Positions 7,720 through 30,799 of a stretch of DNA of 30,799 bases are shown here, one piece after another. The notes beneath the pieces are model-generated. The model saw only the letters and a program-made list of their open reading frames with translations. It searched no databases and was not told the DNA's origin. Numbering within the stretch: the stretch's first letter is position 1; every line of letters begins with the position of its first letter. A program made the position numbers and the translations under genes. This DNA is from Deltaproteobacteria bacterium. Its GTDB lineage: Bacteria > Desulfobacterota > Syntrophia > Syntrophales > UBA5619. The stretch is from contig JAPLJY010000077.1 of the NCBI GenBank assembly GCA_026388345.1, forward strand, positions 1 through 30,799, given 5' to 3'.

Positions 7720-8235
7720 ATGGAAGAGCAGAAGGCCCTTTTGAATGAGGTAGCGGCGGAAGGTTACGACGCCGCGGACAGGCCGTTCGACTTCGTGGAA
7801 GAAGGGGGCGCGACCGCCCTGGTCTGCGAAACCGATCCGGCCGTCCGGGAGAAGATCAGCGGCGGCCTCAAGGAGCTGGGCTACCAGATTACGGTTCCGG
7901 TTTCGGCGAAGGACGCCCTCAAGGCGATGCGGTTTCACGTCTTCGATGTCGTCGTTCTGAACGAACTATTCGATACGGCGAATCCGGAGACGAACGATCT
8001 CCTCCAGTATCTGGAAAACCTGAACATGACGATGCGGCGGCGGATCTTCGTCGCCCTGGTCAGTGAAAAATACCGGACGATGGATAATATGGCCGCCTTC
8101 AACCGGAGCGTCAACATTGTCATCAACCTCAAGAGCATCGGGGACGCGGGAAAGATCGTCAAACAGGGGGTCGCCGACAACAGGGCCTTCTACCACGTCT
8201 TTCAGGAGACGCTGCAGAAGATGGGGAAGGGCTGA
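7720..8235 (+). CDS. Receiver-like (CheY-fold) protein lacking the phospho-acceptor Asp
   Basis: A 171-residue protein, third gene of the pilT operon. Residues of about 32-150 read as a receiver fold. Beta-1 is ALVCETDPAVREKI, where the usual acidic pair is E-T. The following helix and GYQITVPVSAKDALKAM are typical. At the acceptor position the sequence is DVVVLNELFD, with Asn81 where Asp is expected. The Ser of ALVSEK and the Lys of INLKSIGD fit the conserved Thr/Ser and Lys sites. No output domain is present. It probably cannot be phosphorylated in the usual way and may be a constitutive or partner-binding regulator of the two ATPases. This role is inferred from operon position. Its last 77 nt overlap the opposing TPR gene. 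Confidence 0.75.
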   Translation: MEEQKALLNEVAAEGYDAADRPFDFVEEGGATALVCETDPAVREKISGGLKELGYQITVPVSAKDALKAMRFHVFDVVVLNELFDTANPETNDLLQYLENLNMTMRRRIFVALVSEKYRTMDNMAAFNRSVNIVINLKSIGDAGKIVKQGVADNRAFYHVFQETLQKMGKG

Positions 8236-9223
8236 GATTTTTTAGTGGATGTGTCGGGGAGGGTTTCAGCGCCTCCGCCCGGCGGAGGGTGGCCGCGGCG
8301 AGGTCATTCCGACCCTGGGCGGCGAAGGCGGCAGTTAGGCGCAGGTGATAGAGAGGGTTTTCCGGTTCGGAGGCGATGGCTTTGGTGAACGCCGCCGCCG
8401 CGTGGGAATGGAGGCCTTCCTTTGCGAGGTGATTTCCCAGACGGTGCCAGCAGCCCCCCGCGGGCGCCGGCTGAAGATCGGCGGCCCGGCCGTAGGCCTC
8501 CGCAGCGGCGTCCGGTTTCCCCAGGCGGATCTGGCAATCGCCGATGCCCATCCAGCAGAAAGGGTCGGCGGGACGCGCCGCCAGGGATTTTTCCCAGGCT
8601 GCCTTTGCCCTTTCCGGATATCCGGCGCGGAGAAGGCTGTCCGCCAGGCGGCTGAAAAAGGCGGCTTCGGCCGCGGGGTCGATCTCCGCGGCCTTGTTGT
8701 ATGCCGCTTCGGCCCGCTCGCGATCGCCGGCGGTGAGCCATGCCTCGCCGAGCGAACACCAGTGTTCCGGCGCATCCGGTTCGATTCCGGTCAGCCTTTC
8801 AAACACCCGCGCCGCCTCAGCGGCCTTTCCCGCTGCAAGATAAGCCTCTCCCAGCGTTCGAATCAGGCCGGTATCCTCCGGCTGCGCCGCCGCGGCCCGC
8901 TCGCAGACCGAAACCAGGGCCTCCCCGTTTTTCCCCTCCCGGTAGATCCGGACGAGTTCGTCGTAGGCAAACCCGGTGAAGAGCTTGCGCGAAAGTTCCT
9001 TCCGAAAAAGTTGTTCGAAACAGGCGACTGCCTCTTCCGTTTTCCCGCTGTCGTGAAGCGCCCAGGCGAGGGCGAGGAGGTGCGAATCCTCATCCGGATG
9101 TGCTTCGACCCATTTGCGATAGATGGGGACCGCCTCGGCGGGACGTCCCGATTTCATCAGGTCGTCGGCACGGTTCCGGTCGGTGGGGATGGGATCGTCG
9201 ACGGTCATGGAATTGAGCAACAT
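8159..9223 (-). CDS. Tetratricopeptide-repeat protein
   Basis: A protein of about 354 residues made largely of TPR units of 34 residues, with repeated W-x-x-LG-x-x-x, A-x-x-Y/F and P motifs such as EHWCSLGEAWLTAGDRERAE and YNKAAEIDP. There are roughly eight repeats from residue 15 to 310. No signal peptide or catalytic domain is visible, so a cytoplasmic scaffold role is likely; the partner is unknown. Starts at 9223 and 9208 are both possible and neither has a strong Shine-Dalgarno site. The C-terminal 40 residues are low-complexity (Ser/Pro then Arg/Cys/Pro) and lie over the end of the convergent receiver gene, so the true stop may differ, for example after a frameshift near the A-run around 8240-8250. 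Confidence 0.8.
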   Translation of the reverse strand: MLLNSMTVDDPIPTDRNRADDLMKSGRPAEAVPIYRKWVEAHPDEDSHLLALAWALHDSGKTEEAVACFEQLFRKELSRKLFTGFAYDELVRIYREGKNGEALVSVCERAAAAQPEDTGLIRTLGEAYLAAGKAAEAARVFERLTGIEPDAPEHWCSLGEAWLTAGDRERAEAAYNKAAEIDPAAEAAFFSRLADSLLRAGYPERAKAAWEKSLAARPADPFCWMGIGDCQIRLGKPDAAAEAYGRAADLQPAPAGGCWHRLGNHLAKEGLHSHAAAAFTKAIASEPENPLYHLRLTAAFAAQGRNDLAAATLRRAEALKPSPTHPLKNLSPSPSSAASPERRGRRPCCRRPPV

Positions 9224-9249
9224 GCTTTCTTGAAAGGGGGTTACGCTCA

Positions 9250-9289
9250 AAGAAAAAGCCCCGGGGACACTTTTTCTGGCCCCCGGGGC
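9250..9289 (-). terminator. Rho-independent terminator after the HesB-like selenoprotein gene
   Basis: A 9-bp GC-rich stem with arms at 9258-9266 (GCCCCGGGG on the plus strand) and 9281-9289 (CCCCGGGGC) and a 14-nt loop. On the minus strand a TTTTTCT tract (9250-9257) follows the stem. It lies 9 nt beyond the selenoprotein stop and ends before the TPR start. Confidence 0.85.
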
Positions 9290-9297
9290 ATGATTCT

Positions 9298-9615
9298 TTA
9301 GCAACTGGTGCAGGAGCCGCAGGCGCCTTCCTGCTGACTCAGGCTGGAGGTCAGCTTGAACCCGCCCCCCCGCGGTGTAGTGATGAATTCCACCCCGATC
9401 GGCTTGACCTTTTCAAAAAGGTCCTTTTCAACCAGGTAGGTGACCCCTCGATCCTCGAATACTTCATCGTTCTGTTTTGACTCATCCAGAGCCATGCCCA
9501 GAGAGGGCCCCGATCAGCCGCCCTCCTGCATGAGGACCCGGATGGATGGGGCCTCCGTTCGATTCTTAAGGAATTCCTTAATCATTTCACTCGCTTTTTC
9601 AGATACGGAAAACAT
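9298..9615 (-). CDS. HesB/IscA-like selenoprotein (UGA at codon 34 read as Sec)
   Basis: The frame from ATG 9615 (AAAGGAG upstream) runs MFSVSEKASEMIKEFLKN ... VLMQEGG, then TGA at 9514-9516, then SGPSLGMALDESKQND on to the stop at 9298. The total is 105 residues with Sec34. Reading through gives a full-length HesB/IscA-type (A-type carrier) protein. The UGA sits at the first conserved metal-ligand Cys, and the C-terminal ligands are C-G-S-C-T-S-C. The motif GG-U/C-SGPSLGMALDE belongs to the known HesB-like selenoprotein family of deltaproteobacteria and other anaerobes. A-type carriers bind or deliver Fe-S clusters; the role of the Sec form is not established. Without Sec, callers would report only the part from Met-Ala-Leu-Asp-Glu (start 9495). 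The sel genes and tRNA-Sec would lie elsewhere. It has its own promoter and terminator. Confidence 0.87.
9496..9516 (-). other. Sec UGA codon and candidate bacterial SECIS hairpin
   Basis: The UGA (9516-9514) is followed after five bases by a short hairpin, GCCC (9508-9505), loop TCTCT, GGGC (9499-9496). Bacterial SECIS elements sit immediately 3' of the UGA inside the coding region. The hairpin is only 4 bp and I cannot fold the wider context, so the exact SECIS shape is uncertain. Confidence 0.45.
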
Positions 9616-9665
9616 GGTGGTCTCCTTTGTTTCGGACCTTCTTGCGGTCCGTCAGAATTTTTGCT

Positions 9666-12659: not shown

Positions 12660-12929
12660 TCACTTCTTCGCCCCGGCTGGTTTTTTGGCTGCCGGTTTGG
12701 CCTTGGCGACCGTCTTTGCCTTCGCTTTTGCCGGAGCCTTTGGTTTTGCCGGGGCCTTTGCCGCAGCCTTCGCGGGGGCCTTTACCGCGGCCTTCGCGGG
12801 GGCCTTTGCCGCGGCCTTCGCCGGGGCCTTTACCGCAGCCTTCGCGGGGACCTTTGCCGCGGCCTTCACCGGTTTTGCCGGCGCCTTCTTCACCGCGGCC
12901 TTTTTCACGTCCTTCTTCACATTTGCCAT
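12660..12929 (-). CDS. Lys/Ala/Pro-rich histone H1-like protein
   Basis: An 89-residue, extremely basic protein starting MANVKKDVKKAAVKKAPAK and continuing as K-A-P-A-K-A-A-A/V octapeptides, ending in a run of Lys/Ala/Pro (KPAAKKPAGAKK). There are no acidic residues after the first few. This is the composition of bacterial H1-like tails (AlgP, Hc1 and similar), which bind and compact DNA. It would be cytoplasmic and nucleoid-associated; no globular domain is present. The start at 12929 has GGGAGG 8 nt upstream; the frame upstream of it does not look coding. Confidence 0.8.
   Translation of the reverse strand: MANVKKDVKKAAVKKAPAKPVKAAAKVPAKAAVKAPAKAAAKAPAKAAVKAPAKAAAKAPAKPKAPAKAKAKTVAKAKPAAKKPAGAKK
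12751..12870. repeat. Five tandem 24-bp units inside the H1-like gene
   Basis: Five consecutive 24-nt units (12751, 12775, 12799, 12823, 12847) of the type GGGGCCTTTGCCGCGGCCTT plus four bases, each coding eight residues of the KAPAKAAA/V repeat. Units differ at only a few positions, so copy number could vary by slippage, and the protein length with it. Confidence 0.85.
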
Positions 12930-13081
12930 ACGCGTTTCCTCCCTTTCAAATATGCGGTTCCGCATCACCGGGCCCCGGCCTGACCGTGCCCTCCTGCGTG
13001 CGAAATCGTGTGACTCACCAGGATGGTCGTCCATCAATATATATTCTGTAAAGAGTTCCGCTTTTCATGACATATCTTCGC

Positions 13082-27051: not shown

Positions 27052-30000
27052 ATGGCAAAGATCGCAAAGGCAGCAGGAACCGAGAACCATGCCGTCGGAA
27101 AGGTTTTCATCCTTTACGGAACGGTGAAAGCCGTATCGCCCGATGGAACGATGCGCGTTCTGGCGCCCAACAGCCCCGTTTATGCCAATGAACACATCAT
27201 CACCGGGAGCGACGGCAGCGTCTCCATCCAGTTTGATGGGCCTCCCGTGACACAGTTGGATCTCGGCAGAATGACGGAGATTGTTATTGATCAAGATGTC
27301 TATGCCGGCGTCACACCCGAAGTGGTTTCGGAAGCTGCGGCCCAGGCTGAACAGGTTCAGGAATCCCTCTTGCAGGGGGATCAGCCGATAGACCTGGAGG
27401 CTACTGCCGCGGGCGGTACCACAGGGGCGGGCGGCGGCCATCCTGTTGTCAATTTTGCTCTGGACGGCAACGAGGGCGATATTACAAGCGGTGCGGGCAC
27501 GACAGGCATCGATTTCTCCACCGCAGGCACATCAGGCAGTGCTTTCAACAGCGCGCCGGTGGTAGCGGCCACCGATGTCACCGGCGGCGTGACCGAAATG
27601 ATCACGCCGGTGGGCGACCTGACCGACAGCGGCACGATCGCCTTCACGGATGTGGACCTGGCCGACAGCCACAGCATCACGACCATCATCCCCTCTACGG
27701 GTGCGCTGGGCTACCTGACTGCCGGCGTGACCAGCGACACCACAGGCGTCGGAACGGGCGGCGTGATCACCTGGAACTACAGTGTGGCGGCCTCTGCGGT
27801 GGAATACCTGGGTGCGGATGAGACCAAGGTTGAGACCTTCACCATCACCTTGAATGACGGCAACGGCGGCGCAGTGGATCGAACCATTGAAATCACGATC
27901 CAGGGCACCAACGACGGCGTGACGATCACCAGCGGCGAGCAGGCCGACACGGTGACCGAAGACGCGGACACCACACTGGCAACAGATGACTCGCTGGCGG
28001 CGAGCGGCACGATCACGTTCAACGACGTGGACCTGACCGACACGCACGAGGCGGCCGTGACCGCGAGCCCGGCGACGACGCTGGGGACGTTTGCGCTGAA
28101 TCCGGTGAGTGAGAGCGCGACGACCGAGCCAGGCACGGTGGGCTGGACCTACACCCTGGATAACGCTGCGGCGCAGTACCTTGGCGCCGATGAAAGCGTG
28201 ACCGAGGTCTACACCGTCACGGTGACGGACGAAGCCGGCGCGATCAACACGCAGGACGTGACGATCACGATTCAGGGCACGAACGACGGCGTGACGATCA
28301 TCGCGGCCGACACCGATAGTGTTGGCGCGGTGACGGAAGACGGCGATTCGACAGACGAAGGACACCATGAAGGGCACCATGAAGGACACCACGAAGGACA
28401 CGATTCGGATCATTCGACCATAACGGCGGCGGGCACGATCGCCTTCAACGATGTCGACCTGACCGACCTGCACACCGCCGGGTTCGTGGCAGCGGCGGGC
28501 AACACCACGACGCTGGGCACGTTTGCACTGGGCAGTGTGAGCGAGAGCGCGACGACCGAGCCGGGGTCGGTGGGCTGGACCTACACCCTGGATAACGCCG
28601 CCGCGCAGTACCTGGCTGCCGATGAGACGGTGACAGAGACATTTACCGTCACGGTGACGGACGAAGCCGGTGCGACGGCGACCCAGGACATCACGATCAC
28701 GATTACCGGTACGAACGATGCGCCGATCATTGGATCGGGGAGCTTCTCTGGCGGCGTCACGGAGATTGCCGACTTGGCCATTGGCGAGAACGCCACGACT
28801 CTGACGACGAGCGGCTCGTTTGCGGTCACCGATGTCGATCTTAGGGATGTTCAAAGCGTCAGCGCCAAGGCGGTCGGCGAGCACCACGATCACTACCTGG
28901 GCATCTTTACGCCCTCGGTTACCGATAACACGATCGGCGACGGAGCCGGCACGATTGGTTGGACATTTACGGTTGCCGACAGCGCGGTGGATTACCTGGC
29001 CAAGGGTCAGACCCTGACCCAGAGTTACGAGGTCAAGGTTAGCGACGGTCAGGGCGGGACGGATACGGAGACGGTCACGATCACGATTACCGGGACGAAT
29101 GATGCGCCGATCATTGGATCGGGGAGCTTCTCTGGCGGCGTTACGGAGATTGCCGACGGCGCCCCTGGCGAGAACCACACGAATCTGACGACAAGCGGTT
29201 CGTTTGCGGTCACCGATGTCGATCTTAGGGATGTTCAGAGCGTCAGCGCCAAGGCGGTCGGCGAGAACCACGATCACTACCTGGGCACCTTTAAGCCCAC
29301 GGTCACCGATAACACCCACGACGATGGAACCGGCACGATTGGCTGGAGCTTTAAGGTTGCCGACAGCGCGGTGGATTACTTGGTCCAAGGTCAGACCCTG
29401 ACACAGAGCTACGAAGTCAAGGTCAGCGACGGTCAGGGCGGGACGGATACGGAGACGGTAACGATCACGATTACCGGGACCAACGATGCGCCGGTGATCA
29501 GTGTGGGCCATTGTGACAGCGCCGCGGAAACGTTGGTTGAGACCAATTCGGGTCTGACCGTCAGCGACACATTGACGGTGGTCGATGCGGACCTGAGCGA
29601 TACGGTGAGTCCGACGGTGGCGTCGGTGGTGGCTTCGGGCACGACCACGGGTCTGGGTTCGGATAACGCGGCGCTGAAAGCGATGCTGACGGTGACGCCG
29701 GCCTCGATCGCCGCTGATCCGGGCGATGCGCACAACCTGCACTGGACGTTCGCCTCCGGCTCGCAGGCGTTCGACTACCTCGATGACGGCGAGAGCCTGA
29801 CGCTCACCTACAAGGTGAAAGCGACGGATGACAGTTCGACCTTCGACACGCAGGACGTGACGATCACGATTACCGGGACCAACGATGCGCCGGTGATCAG
29901 TGTGGGGGATAGCGACAGTGTGGCGGAAACGTTGGTTGAGACCAATTCGGGTCTGACCGTCAGCGACACGTTGACGGTGGTCGATGCGGACCTGAGCGAT

Positions 30001-30799
30001 TCGGTGAGTCCGACGGTGGCGTCGGTAGTGGCTTCGGGCACGACCACGGGTCTGGGTTCGGATAATGCGGCGCTGCTTGCGATGCTGGATGTGACGCCGG
30101 CCTTGATCGCGGCCAACACGGGCAGTACGCACAACCTGAACTGGGCGTTCGCCTCGGGCAGCGAGGCGTTCGACTACCTGGCCAACGGCGAGTCGCTGAC
30201 GCTCACCTACACGGTGCGCGCGACGGACGACAGTGCGGCCTTCGACGACCAGACGGTGACGATCACCATCATCGGTACCAACGATGCGCCGACGATCTCA
30301 GCAACCGATTCCTTGGGGATCACCGAAGCGGTGGATGCAAGTGCTCAGGATCTGTCCCAGGCGGGCACAGTGTCCTTCGGGGATATCGACACCACCGACG
30401 TGGTAGATATCACCTTTGCCTCCAACGGCGACATCGCCTGGAGCGGCGGTACGATTGATTCGACTCTGGCGGCACAGCTCGTTGATGGTTTCAGCACCGG
30501 CGTCATCGATGCGGATGCCCCCGGCACCACGCCTTGGGCCTACGGCGTCAACGATGCCAACCTGGATTTTCTGGCGAAGGGCGAGACGATCACCTTCTCC
30601 TACACGGTGACGGCGACCGACAGCCAGGGCGCCACGGCCACGGATGTGGTGACCTTCAACATTACCGGCACGAATGATGCGCCGACGATCTCAGCAACCG
30701 ATTCCTTGGGGATCACCGAAGCGGTGGATGCAAGTGCTCAGGATCTGTCCCAGGCGGGCACAGTGTCCTTCGGGGATATCGACACCACCGACGTGGTAG
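27052..30799 (+). CDS. LapA/BapA-like giant adhesin with retention module (3' end outside window)
   Basis: At least 1249 residues; the 3' end is missing. The start at 27052 has AAGGAGG 8 nt upstream. There is no classical signal peptide, as expected for type I (LapBCE-type) secretion. Residues 15-85 (VGKVFILYGTVKAVSPDGT, VYANEHIITGSDGSVSIQF, LDLGRMTEIVID) match the N-terminal retention module of LapA-type adhesins. T118-A-A-G121 is a di-alanine site of the LapG protease type. A Gly/Ala/Ser-rich linker follows, then at least seven beta-sandwich repeats of about 95-133 residues, each ending near TITITGTNDAP, as in VCBS/cadherin-like domains. The module would hold the protein in the outer membrane until LapG cuts it under c-di-GMP/LapD control; those genes are not in this window. 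The expected type I signal lies beyond 30799. Confidence 0.88.
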   Translation, partial: MAKIAKAAGTENHAVGKVFILYGTVKAVSPDGTMRVLAPNSPVYANEHIITGSDGSVSIQFDGPPVTQLDLGRMTEIVIDQDVYAGVTPEVVSEAAAQAEQVQESLLQGDQPIDLEATAAGGTTGAGGGHPVVNFALDGNEGDITSGAGTTGIDFSTAGTSGSAFNSAPVVAATDVTGGVTEMITPVGDLTDSGTIAFTDVDLADSHSITTIIPSTGALGYLTAGVTSDTTGVGTGGVITWNYSVAASAVEYLGADETKVETFTITLNDGNGGAVDRTIEITIQGTNDGVTITSGEQADTVTEDADTTLATDDSLAASGTITFNDVDLTDTHEAAVTASPATTLGTFALNPVSESATTEPGTVGWTYTLDNAAAQYLGADESVTEVYTVTVTDEAGAINTQDVTITIQGTNDGVTIIAADTDSVGAVTEDGDSTDEGHHEGHHEGHHEGHDSDHSTITAAGTIAFNDVDLTDLHTAGFVAAAGNTTTLGTFALGSVSESATTEPGSVGWTYTLDNAAAQYLAADETVTETFTVTVTDEAGATATQDITITITGTNDAPIIGSGSFSGGVTEIADLAIGENATTLTTSGSFAVTDVDLRDVQSVSAKAVGEHHDHYLGIFTPSVTDNTIGDGAGTIGWTFTVADSAVDYLAKGQTLTQSYEVKVSDGQGGTDTETVTITITGTNDAPIIGSGSFSGGVTEIADGAPGENHTNLTTSGSFAVTDVDLRDVQSVSAKAVGENHDHYLGTFKPTVTDNTHDDGTGTIGWSFKVADSAVDYLVQGQTLTQSYEVKVSDGQGGTDTETVTITITGTNDAPVISVGHCDSAAETLVETNSGLTVSDTLTVVDADLSDTVSPTVASVVASGTTTGLGSDNAALKAMLTVTPASIAADPGDAHNLHWTFASGSQAFDYLDDGESLTLTYKVKATDDSSTFDTQDVTITITGTNDAPVISVGDSDSVAETLVETNSGLTVSDTLTVVDADLSDSVSPTVASVVASGTTTGLGSDNAALLAMLDVTPALIAANTGSTHNLNWAFASGSEAFDYLANGESLTLTYTVRATDDSAAFDDQTVTITIIGTNDAPTISATDSLGITEAVDASAQDLSQAGTVSFGDIDTTDVVDITFASNGDIAWSGGTIDSTLAAQLVDGFSTGVIDADAPGTTPWAYGVNDANLDFLAKGETITFSYTVTATDSQGATATDVVTFNITGTNDAPTISATDSLGITEAVDASAQDLSQAGTVSFGDIDTTDVV
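28357..28404 (+). repeat. Four tandem 12-nt units coding EGHH in the adhesin
   Basis: Four 12-nt units (28357, 28369, 28381, 28393) of the type GAAGGACACCAT, coding E-G-H-H (the last E-G-H-D), set in a DEGHHEGHHEGHHEGHDSDH insert between two domains. It is a His-rich stretch suitable for binding Zn, Ni or Cu, and can change length by slippage. Confidence 0.9.
28717..29484 (+). repeat. Two near-identical 384-nt adhesin domain units
   Basis: Units at 28717-29100 and 29101-29484 (128 codons each) share long identical DNA stretches, for example from GATGCGCCGATCATTGGATC onward. Differences are scattered substitutions. This is recent duplication or ongoing gene conversion. Confidence 0.85.
29485..30282 (+). 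repeat. Two near-identical 399-nt adhesin domain units
   Basis: Units at 29485-29883 and 29884-30282 (133 codons each) start with the same GATGCGCCGGTGATCAGTGT and stay highly similar, with some divergent patches (for example 29700-29830 against 30090-30230). Confidence 0.85.
30283..30799 (+). repeat. 393-nt adhesin unit followed by an identical start of the next copy
   Basis: A 393-nt unit (131 codons) starts at 30283; the next begins at 30676 and is identical by eye for the 124 nt remaining in the window. The array continues beyond the end. Confidence 0.85.

Follow-up and report, generated by a model that had tools for sequence, protein, structure and literature searches.

HesB-like selenoproteins are listed in Syntrophus, Syntrophobacter, Desulfovibrio and Geobacter by Zhang et al. 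(2006; PMC1794560), who at that time counted 11 genes and reported a remnant SECIS-like structure for Desulfitobacterium. The motif given for these proteins is U-x-G-P (PMC13188914). In Methanococcus maripaludis a HesB-like selenoprotein was found by mutagenesis together with 75Se labelling (PMC11097638), and a disruption mutant of the archaeal relative could still fix nitrogen, an unpublished observation in the same source. A survey from 2009, which was based on the Pfam family PF01521, described A-type Fe-S carriers as absent from many Delta-Proteobacteria (PMC2682760). An earlier note on the DNA analyzed here called a selenolate ligand on an Fe-S carrier functionally unexplained, which agrees with the relevant parts of PMC13188914 and PMC11097638.

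Here we compare with these systems a gene carried on a stretch of 30,799 nucleotides (hereafter the window) from a Deltaproteobacteria bacterium (assembly GCA_026388345.1, contig JAPLJY010000077.1). Judged by the parts of the literature that describe the family, the gene is an ordinary member of a known group of selenoproteins (PMC1794560, PMC13188914, PMC9312934, PMC11097638). It matches the NCBIfam family NF038090 (IscA_HesB_Se) over its full length, with Sec/Cys at the first ligand position, and nothing found here sets the window protein apart from that family. With TIGR01911 and the Methanococcus maripaludis protein it has the fold family and the U-x-G-P motif in common, whereas archaeal decoding uses another SECIS type (PMC13188914). 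The Sec-to-Cys conversion with a remnant SECIS-like structure in PMC1794560 has counterparts here (loci L011 and L075); the 11 genes known then compare with UGA in 75 of the 80 loci fetched in this study, the best 80 of 199. E. coli IscA, SufA and ErpA have the same fold, and residue 34 falls on Cys35 of IscA, but the window protein differs from them in carrying Sec for Cys and a CGSCTSC tail.

Gene Structure and Reading Frame

The gene and its neighbor comprise the following features.

9298..9615, minus strand: Sec-containing IscA/HesB-family gene, 105 codons plus TAA stop (from translation with TGA=U, the NF038090 match and the IscA fold)
9622..9627, minus strand: Shine-Dalgarno-like AAGGAG, six bases 5' of the ATG (read from the sequence)
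9514..9516, minus strand: predicted selenocysteine codon, in-frame UGA, codon 34 (aligned with the presumed first ligand Cys of E. coli IscA, 1s98)
9301..9321, minus strand: C-terminal cysteine cluster Cys99, Cys102 and Cys105 (CGSCTSC), presumed co-ligands of Sec34
8159..9304, minus strand: downstream TPR-repeat gene, a possible operon partner (ORF limits, the true start probably being near 9208-9223; from Pfam TPR families)

Read from 9615 to 9298 on the minus strand, the sequence begins with ATG, ends with TAA and contains a single in-frame TGA at codon 34 (9516-9514). With TGA read as U the translation is MFSVSEKASEMIKEFLKNRTEAPSIRVLMQEGG-U-SGPSLGMALDES...LSQQEGACGSCTSC, and the residues just 5' of U are MQEGG. 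The earlier note had correctly placed the gene at 9298..9615 and the UGA at codon 34, without giving a strand; the gene lies on the minus strand, and the plus-strand reading of this interval was rejected as the wrong strand, its translation showing nothing IscA/HesB-like. The claim that the frame continues across the TGA, exactly at the first ligand Cys of the family, was borne out by the 105-codon ORF and by a phmmer alignment in which residue 34 lies on Cys35 of E. coli IscA. We take Cys35 (1s98) to be the first ligand. The three C-terminal cysteines, Cys99, Cys102 and Cys105, are invariant in an alignment of 23 sequences. Gene calling does truncate the protein as had been predicted: among the 120 homologues listed (214 found), 33 are C-terminal pieces of 64–70 aa that start after the UGA. 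The best reading, supported and right as far as sequence can show, is that the gene from 9615 to 9298 encodes an IscA/HesB-family selenoprotein.

Because the neighborhood lists hold many antisense shadow ORFs, only two neighbors were used. In 32 of 81 loci, among them the window, the selenoprotein gene is followed by the TPR-repeat gene in the same orientation, while in another branch a gene that, judged from its sequence, is presumably RdgB-like precedes the selenoprotein gene (24 of 81 loci). Nothing in the neighborhoods of the 81 loci points to a single target. Three frames elsewhere in the window were noted on the minus strand. At 1712-2449 lies a frame which, by eye, we take to be Peptidase-C14/caspase-like, with an in-frame TAG at 2144-2146 beyond which family-like sequence resumes. 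An Ala/Lys/Pro-rich repeat protein, histone-tail-like by eye and with no Pfam match, is found at 12660-13037, and a very long open frame with repeated segments at 27532-30132 is possibly the shadow of a repetitive gene.

Family Assignment and Fold

Comparison with the HesB-like selenoprotein family, which the earlier note had recommended, gave a score of 115.5 bits with NF038090 against a curated cut-off of 85. The match covers positions 1-101 of 101, so that the flanks of codon 34 do agree with the known selenoprotein family. The UxGP motif is present at the first ligand position as U-S-G-P (residues 34-37). Scores with other profiles were below their cut-offs: 42.4 bits with TIGR01911 (HesB_rel_seleno; cut-off 66.35), 55.8 bits with TIGR00049 (cut-off 58.8) and 21.4 bits with PF01521 (Fe-S_biosyn), under the gathering score of 26.3 although the fold agrees. 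The IscA, SufA and ErpA equivalogs were missed, with 44.5 of 150.6, 40.1 of 136.2 and 33.2 of 117 bits, respectively.

The AlphaFold model has a mean pLDDT of 83.7, with residues 95-105 below 50. The closest PDB folds are IscA (1r94, E 8.8e-7, TM 0.73/0.78; 1s98, E 4.3e-6). Aligned with E. coli IscA, the window protein does not keep the canonical C-x-C tail in register, its CGSCTSC standing against C-G-C.

Conservation of the UGA Codon

Genome contigs were scanned with an alignment of relatives, and the best 80 of 199 confirmed loci were fetched. Among the 79 loci parsed by motif, the aligned codon is TGA in 74, TGC in three and TGT in two, and neither TAA nor TAG occurs at this position in any of them. 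The locus that the parser missed (L018) also has TGA by eye, giving 75 of 80; in what follows, "75 UGA genes" means the 74 parsed loci plus the window, out of 80 genes. Of the 75 UGA genes, 33 also end in UGA, which means that one and the same gene has this codon read in two ways and that UGA has not simply been reassigned. The aligned codon is mostly UGA and not sense in the homologues, and dN is below dS on both sides of it when the window gene is compared with 12 relatives (one dS value saturated). The same comparison gave no sign of decay in the window gene; a sense codon in the homologues together with decay of this copy is what the earlier note would have counted against its own reading.

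In a tree of the 80 genes we found four Sec/Cys changes, the Cys rows being nested among Sec rows (104 columns, with 25 of 77 inner branches open). One 3,179,300-bp single-contig genome (G082) has four UGA-bearing copies.

More distant paralogues also have Trp, Ser, Ala or Arg at the Sec codon. Two Syntrophus-type paralogues (L100 and L107) have a true TGG (Trp) there and an altered cysteine tail, and L107 scores 93.2 bits with NF038090 despite the Trp codon. A UGA-bearing paralogue group with the sequence FGUIGPRLAMVLDEP and a different tail was read in three genomes (L187, L188, L189). Further Syntrophus-type paralogues, with several copies per genome (L095, L098, L101, L108 and L110, in G082, G083 and G035), have a vicinal Cys-Sec pair, e.g. 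SCUGPASLAMALDE; in six reads of this type the SECIS position retains 6, 5, 5, 5, 4 and 3 of the 6 pairs of the stem.

The SECIS-like Hairpin

Two hairpins were recognized downstream of the UGA.

9496..9508, minus strand: lower 4-bp hairpin, placed after the UGA and before the apical hairpin (RNAalifold consensus, pair counts)
9478..9494, minus strand: apical SECIS-like hairpin, +20 to +36 after the UGA (RNAalifold consensus, pair counts, silent-site conservation)

The apical hairpin has a 6-bp stem and, in the window, the loop UGGAU, whose second position is G; across the 75 UGA genes the loop is UGGAU/C. At least 5 of the 6 apical pairs are kept in every one of these genes and in 82 of 84 further UGA-bearing reads, which in part repeat the first set; in the five Cys genes the numbers are 6, 5, 5, 3 and 1. 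In L011 all six pairs are kept although the codon ahead of them is Cys, which resembles the remnant SECIS-like structure reported for Desulfitobacterium (PMC1794560).

Silent sites are constrained in codons 35-46. The 10 conserved codons of this stretch show a codon bias of 1.09 bits, as compared with 0.19 for the 46 conserved codons outside it (p 6e-6), and Ala42 is GCT in 99% of cases versus 13% for the rest of the same genes. Values of dS lie at 0–0.22 in codons 35-46 and at 0.21 or more in the flanks (12 comparisons, one value saturated). The consensus structure pairs in 94.8% of cells versus 92.8% in shuffles, slid versions of it pair in 17–50% of cells, two-sided changes occur in 4 of 10 pairs, and on each of five measures the observed value was matched by 0 of 500 shuffles; these statistics come from 76 sequences (73 distinct, L018 included) that are related to one another and from which the structure itself was derived. 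In L048 a C-G pair replaces a U-A pair, and an amino acid is changed as well.

The bacterial SECIS model as given in PMC13188914 has a loop of 3–9 nt, a stem of 4–16 bp, a distance of 16–37 nt from the UGA, a G within the first two loop positions and a minimum free energy (MFE) at or below -7.5 kcal/mol. The geometry of the window hairpin fits this model: the stem has 6 bp, the loop UGGAU carries its G at position 2, and the distance is 25 nt. Its MFE is -6.5 kcal/mol for the hairpin alone and -15.1 for the 39 nt after the UGA, and the -7.5 limit may not mean the hairpin alone. A strict hairpin-only bSECIS search proved blunt: 6.2% of background codons (254 of 4116) passed it, as did 30 of the 75 UGA genes, and the window was rejected for its energy. 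The Rfam gathering scan of the window returned only a tRNA and matched no SECIS family. Folding downstream of the UGA for a SECIS, as proposed in the earlier note, gave a mixed outcome: the consensus over the 75 UGA genes contains a hairpin, while the single-sequence fold of the 67 nt from codon 34 on was no better than shuffles (z -0.62).

Selenocysteine Machinery in the Genomes of Relatives

Forty genomes, mostly metagenome bins that may be incomplete, were chosen from the hosts of the 80 loci and compared with 14 control genomes. Matches over cut-off were found for selA in 35 and selB in 36 of the 40, and tRNA-Sec scored at least 70 bits in 31; the corresponding numbers for the 14 controls are 1, 2 and 5. 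The tRNA-Sec scan, which with the exception of one genome was confined to the 80 top candidates of each, gave some match at E 0.001 in 40/40 genomes and 14/14 controls; the weak ones are presumably other tRNAs, and so only matches of at least 70 bits were counted. With selB, too, every genome and every control had matches, some presumably to other translation factors, and so only those over cut-off were counted.

In the 36 genomes with a UGA copy, selA was present in 33, selB in 33 and tRNA-Sec in 29, with at least one of them in 35. The exception is G005 (1.8 Mb, UGA form), where selA, selB and tRNA-Sec were all not found. Four genomes have only Cys copies among the loci read (selA in 2, selB in 3, tRNA-Sec in 2), and one of these, G040, has in addition, at the end of a contig, a partial match that bears UGA and may not be Cys-only. 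The genomes of these relatives do not show the lack of selA, selB and selC that the earlier note would have taken to refute its reading. Curated family score, IscA fold, conserved UGA, SECIS-like hairpin and Sec machinery in relatives together uphold the identity first proposed, a HesB/IscA-like selenoprotein.

A-type Carriers Across the Class and Phylum

TIGR00049 matches were obtained in all 40 relatives' genomes, 31 of which have UGA-bearing matches exclusively. The TIGR00049 cut-off is exceeded in four: G019 and G020 (stop-free), G011 (the Cys-form L011) and G028 (UGA-bearing). PF01521 with stops read through matches in 11 of 35 genomes, 8 of them over cut-off; Pfam thus sees few of these proteins. 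Scaffold families are widespread among the 40 genomes (NifU_N in 38, SufBD in 24).

The analysis was extended to 109 genomes from the class of G002 and to a phylum sample of 118, drawn with a completeness filter of 90 that may not have acted. In the class sample 96 of 109 genomes match TIGR00049 and 13 do not. The UGA form is present in 90 of 109, made up of 70 of 75 re-read genomes, G019 via L019, and 19 of 21 genomes read earlier (the other 2 being Cys). Three of the re-read genomes have Cys only, and a weak match in G060 (21.8 bits) has Ser. The TIGR00049 cut-off is exceeded in 5 of 109 class genomes, by a UGA-bearing gene in G089 and by four stop-free Cys members; the latter are NF038090 members (104–121 bits), and none of the four reaches the IscA, SufA or ErpA equivalog cut-offs. 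Canonical carriers would probably have been seen, since TIGR00049 passes its cut-off in 8 of the 14 control genomes. On these sequence counts the selenoprotein looks like the A-type carrier of the relatives' class.

The phylum sample was divided evenly, with 59 of 118 genomes matching TIGR00049 and 59 without a match. At least one UGA-bearing match occurs in 51 genomes, a UGA anywhere in the match being counted, and six genomes exceed the cut-off with stop-free sequences (93–132 bits). A-type carriers may be dispensable, since 13/109 class and 59/118 phylum genomes are without a TIGR00049 match. The protein is easily overlooked because the UGA truncates the gene and Pfam scores it below threshold, and the gap reported for Delta-Proteobacteria in the survey part of PMC2682760 could come in part from this truncation and the profile threshold.

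Presumed Ligands and the Cysteine Tail

At least two tail cysteines are kept in 147 of 153 sequences with Sec34, 13 of 15 with Cys and 2 of 8 with another residue, counted over 176 distinct sequences with full frames that are related and hence not independent. Ligand position and cysteine tail thus appear to be mostly kept together, which fits a shared ligand set.

Nine sequences have a TGA in the tail. In some of them an S-to-C change stands beside a C-to-TGA change, which suggests a plain stop. TGA replaces the final conserved Cys codon in L127 (G103) and L138 (G047), with TAA or TAG directly behind it; this TGA is probably a stop rather than a second, C-terminal Sec. A related A-type protein that lacks the first Cys is encoded in one Acidobacteria bin (L195).

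Proposed Mechanism and Alternatives

In the proposed mechanism, the hairpin downstream of the UGA at codon 34 would recruit SelB and Sec-tRNA(Sec), so that selenocysteine is inserted; a UGA without a SECIS hairpin would end translation. The product would fold as an A-type carrier with Sec34 replacing the first ligand Cys. Sec34 and the mobile C-terminal cysteines 99, 102 and 105 might then hold an Fe-S cluster or iron, and the cluster might be passed from IscU/NifU- or SufB-type scaffolds to target proteins. Genome surveys suggest that the protein could stand in for IscA/SufA/ErpA in this class of anaerobes. From the sequence data we regard SECIS/SelB decoding of Sec34 and the A-type carrier fold as nearly certain, and Fe-S carriage by Sec34 and the cysteines, together with replacement of IscA/SufA/ErpA in the class, as somewhat favored. 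The explanation as a whole, a selenolate-ligated A-type Fe-S carrier that would be the main one of its group, is in our judgment likely.

Two alternatives deny that selenocysteine is inserted at all, and both seem very improbable. The UGA could be a real stop in a pseudogene, with the gene decaying or expressed as a fragment started at Met41, as the 64–70-aa pieces reported by gene callers for 33 of the 120 listed homologues (214 found) would have it; against this, UGA is kept in 75 of the best 80 of 199 loci with dN below dS on either side, AAGGAG precedes the full-length ATG with none visible before Met41, and a Met41 fragment would be without the first ligand. Equally hard to credit is a UGA read as tryptophan, by a reassigned code or read-through. 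Among the 120 listed homologues (214 found), 33 do show Trp at this place (GGWSGP-type, P0014-P0110), but for 33/33 the nearest of the 80 DNA-read genes has TGA, the best at 98% identity, and these database entries probably represent UGA read as Trp by table-4 gene calling. Use of UGA as terminator in 33 of 75 of these genes, Cys as the alternative in the 79 parsed loci, and the presence of a SECIS-like hairpin and, in relatives, of Sec machinery also speak against Trp, for which real TGG was read only in the two Syntrophus-type paralogues L100 and L107.

A third alternative accepts the selenoprotein and questions its task: a known selenoprotein on a borrowed IscA fold might perform a job other than Fe-S delivery, such as thiol/selenol redox chemistry or the binding of another metal or metalloid. 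A 2026 review, in the part concerned, deems redox functions likely for most uncharacterised selenoproteins (PMC13188914), and the altered C-x-C tail of the window protein, the paralogues with a vicinal Cys-Sec pair and the A-type protein without first Cys in L195 point the same way. We nevertheless consider this rather unlikely, given that ligand position and cysteine tail are mostly kept together, that a canonical A-type carrier was not found in the class sample and that scaffolds are present in most of the 40 genomes. The repeated replacement of Sec by Cys suits a ligand and a redox residue alike and does not decide between them.

Significance

To the selenolate-ligated carrier favored above we attach a broader proposal, which is tentative and which we hold with distinctly less confidence: that across the class and much of the phylum the A-type Fe-S carrier may be a selenoprotein, usually the sole one of its kind, so that general Fe-S delivery would be selenolate-ligated and the reported Delta-Proteobacteria absence partly an artefact. 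Searches of open-licence papers turned up no earlier statement that this selenoprotein is the sole A-type carrier in the group. HesB-like selenoproteins are without a settled function in the relevant parts of PMC13188914 and PMC11097638, and the genome survey suggests a testable one. If cluster delivery is true, the published A-type carrier gap, as described in the survey part of PMC2682760, would be partly an annotation artefact, and Fe-S assembly in syntrophic anaerobes would depend on selenium.
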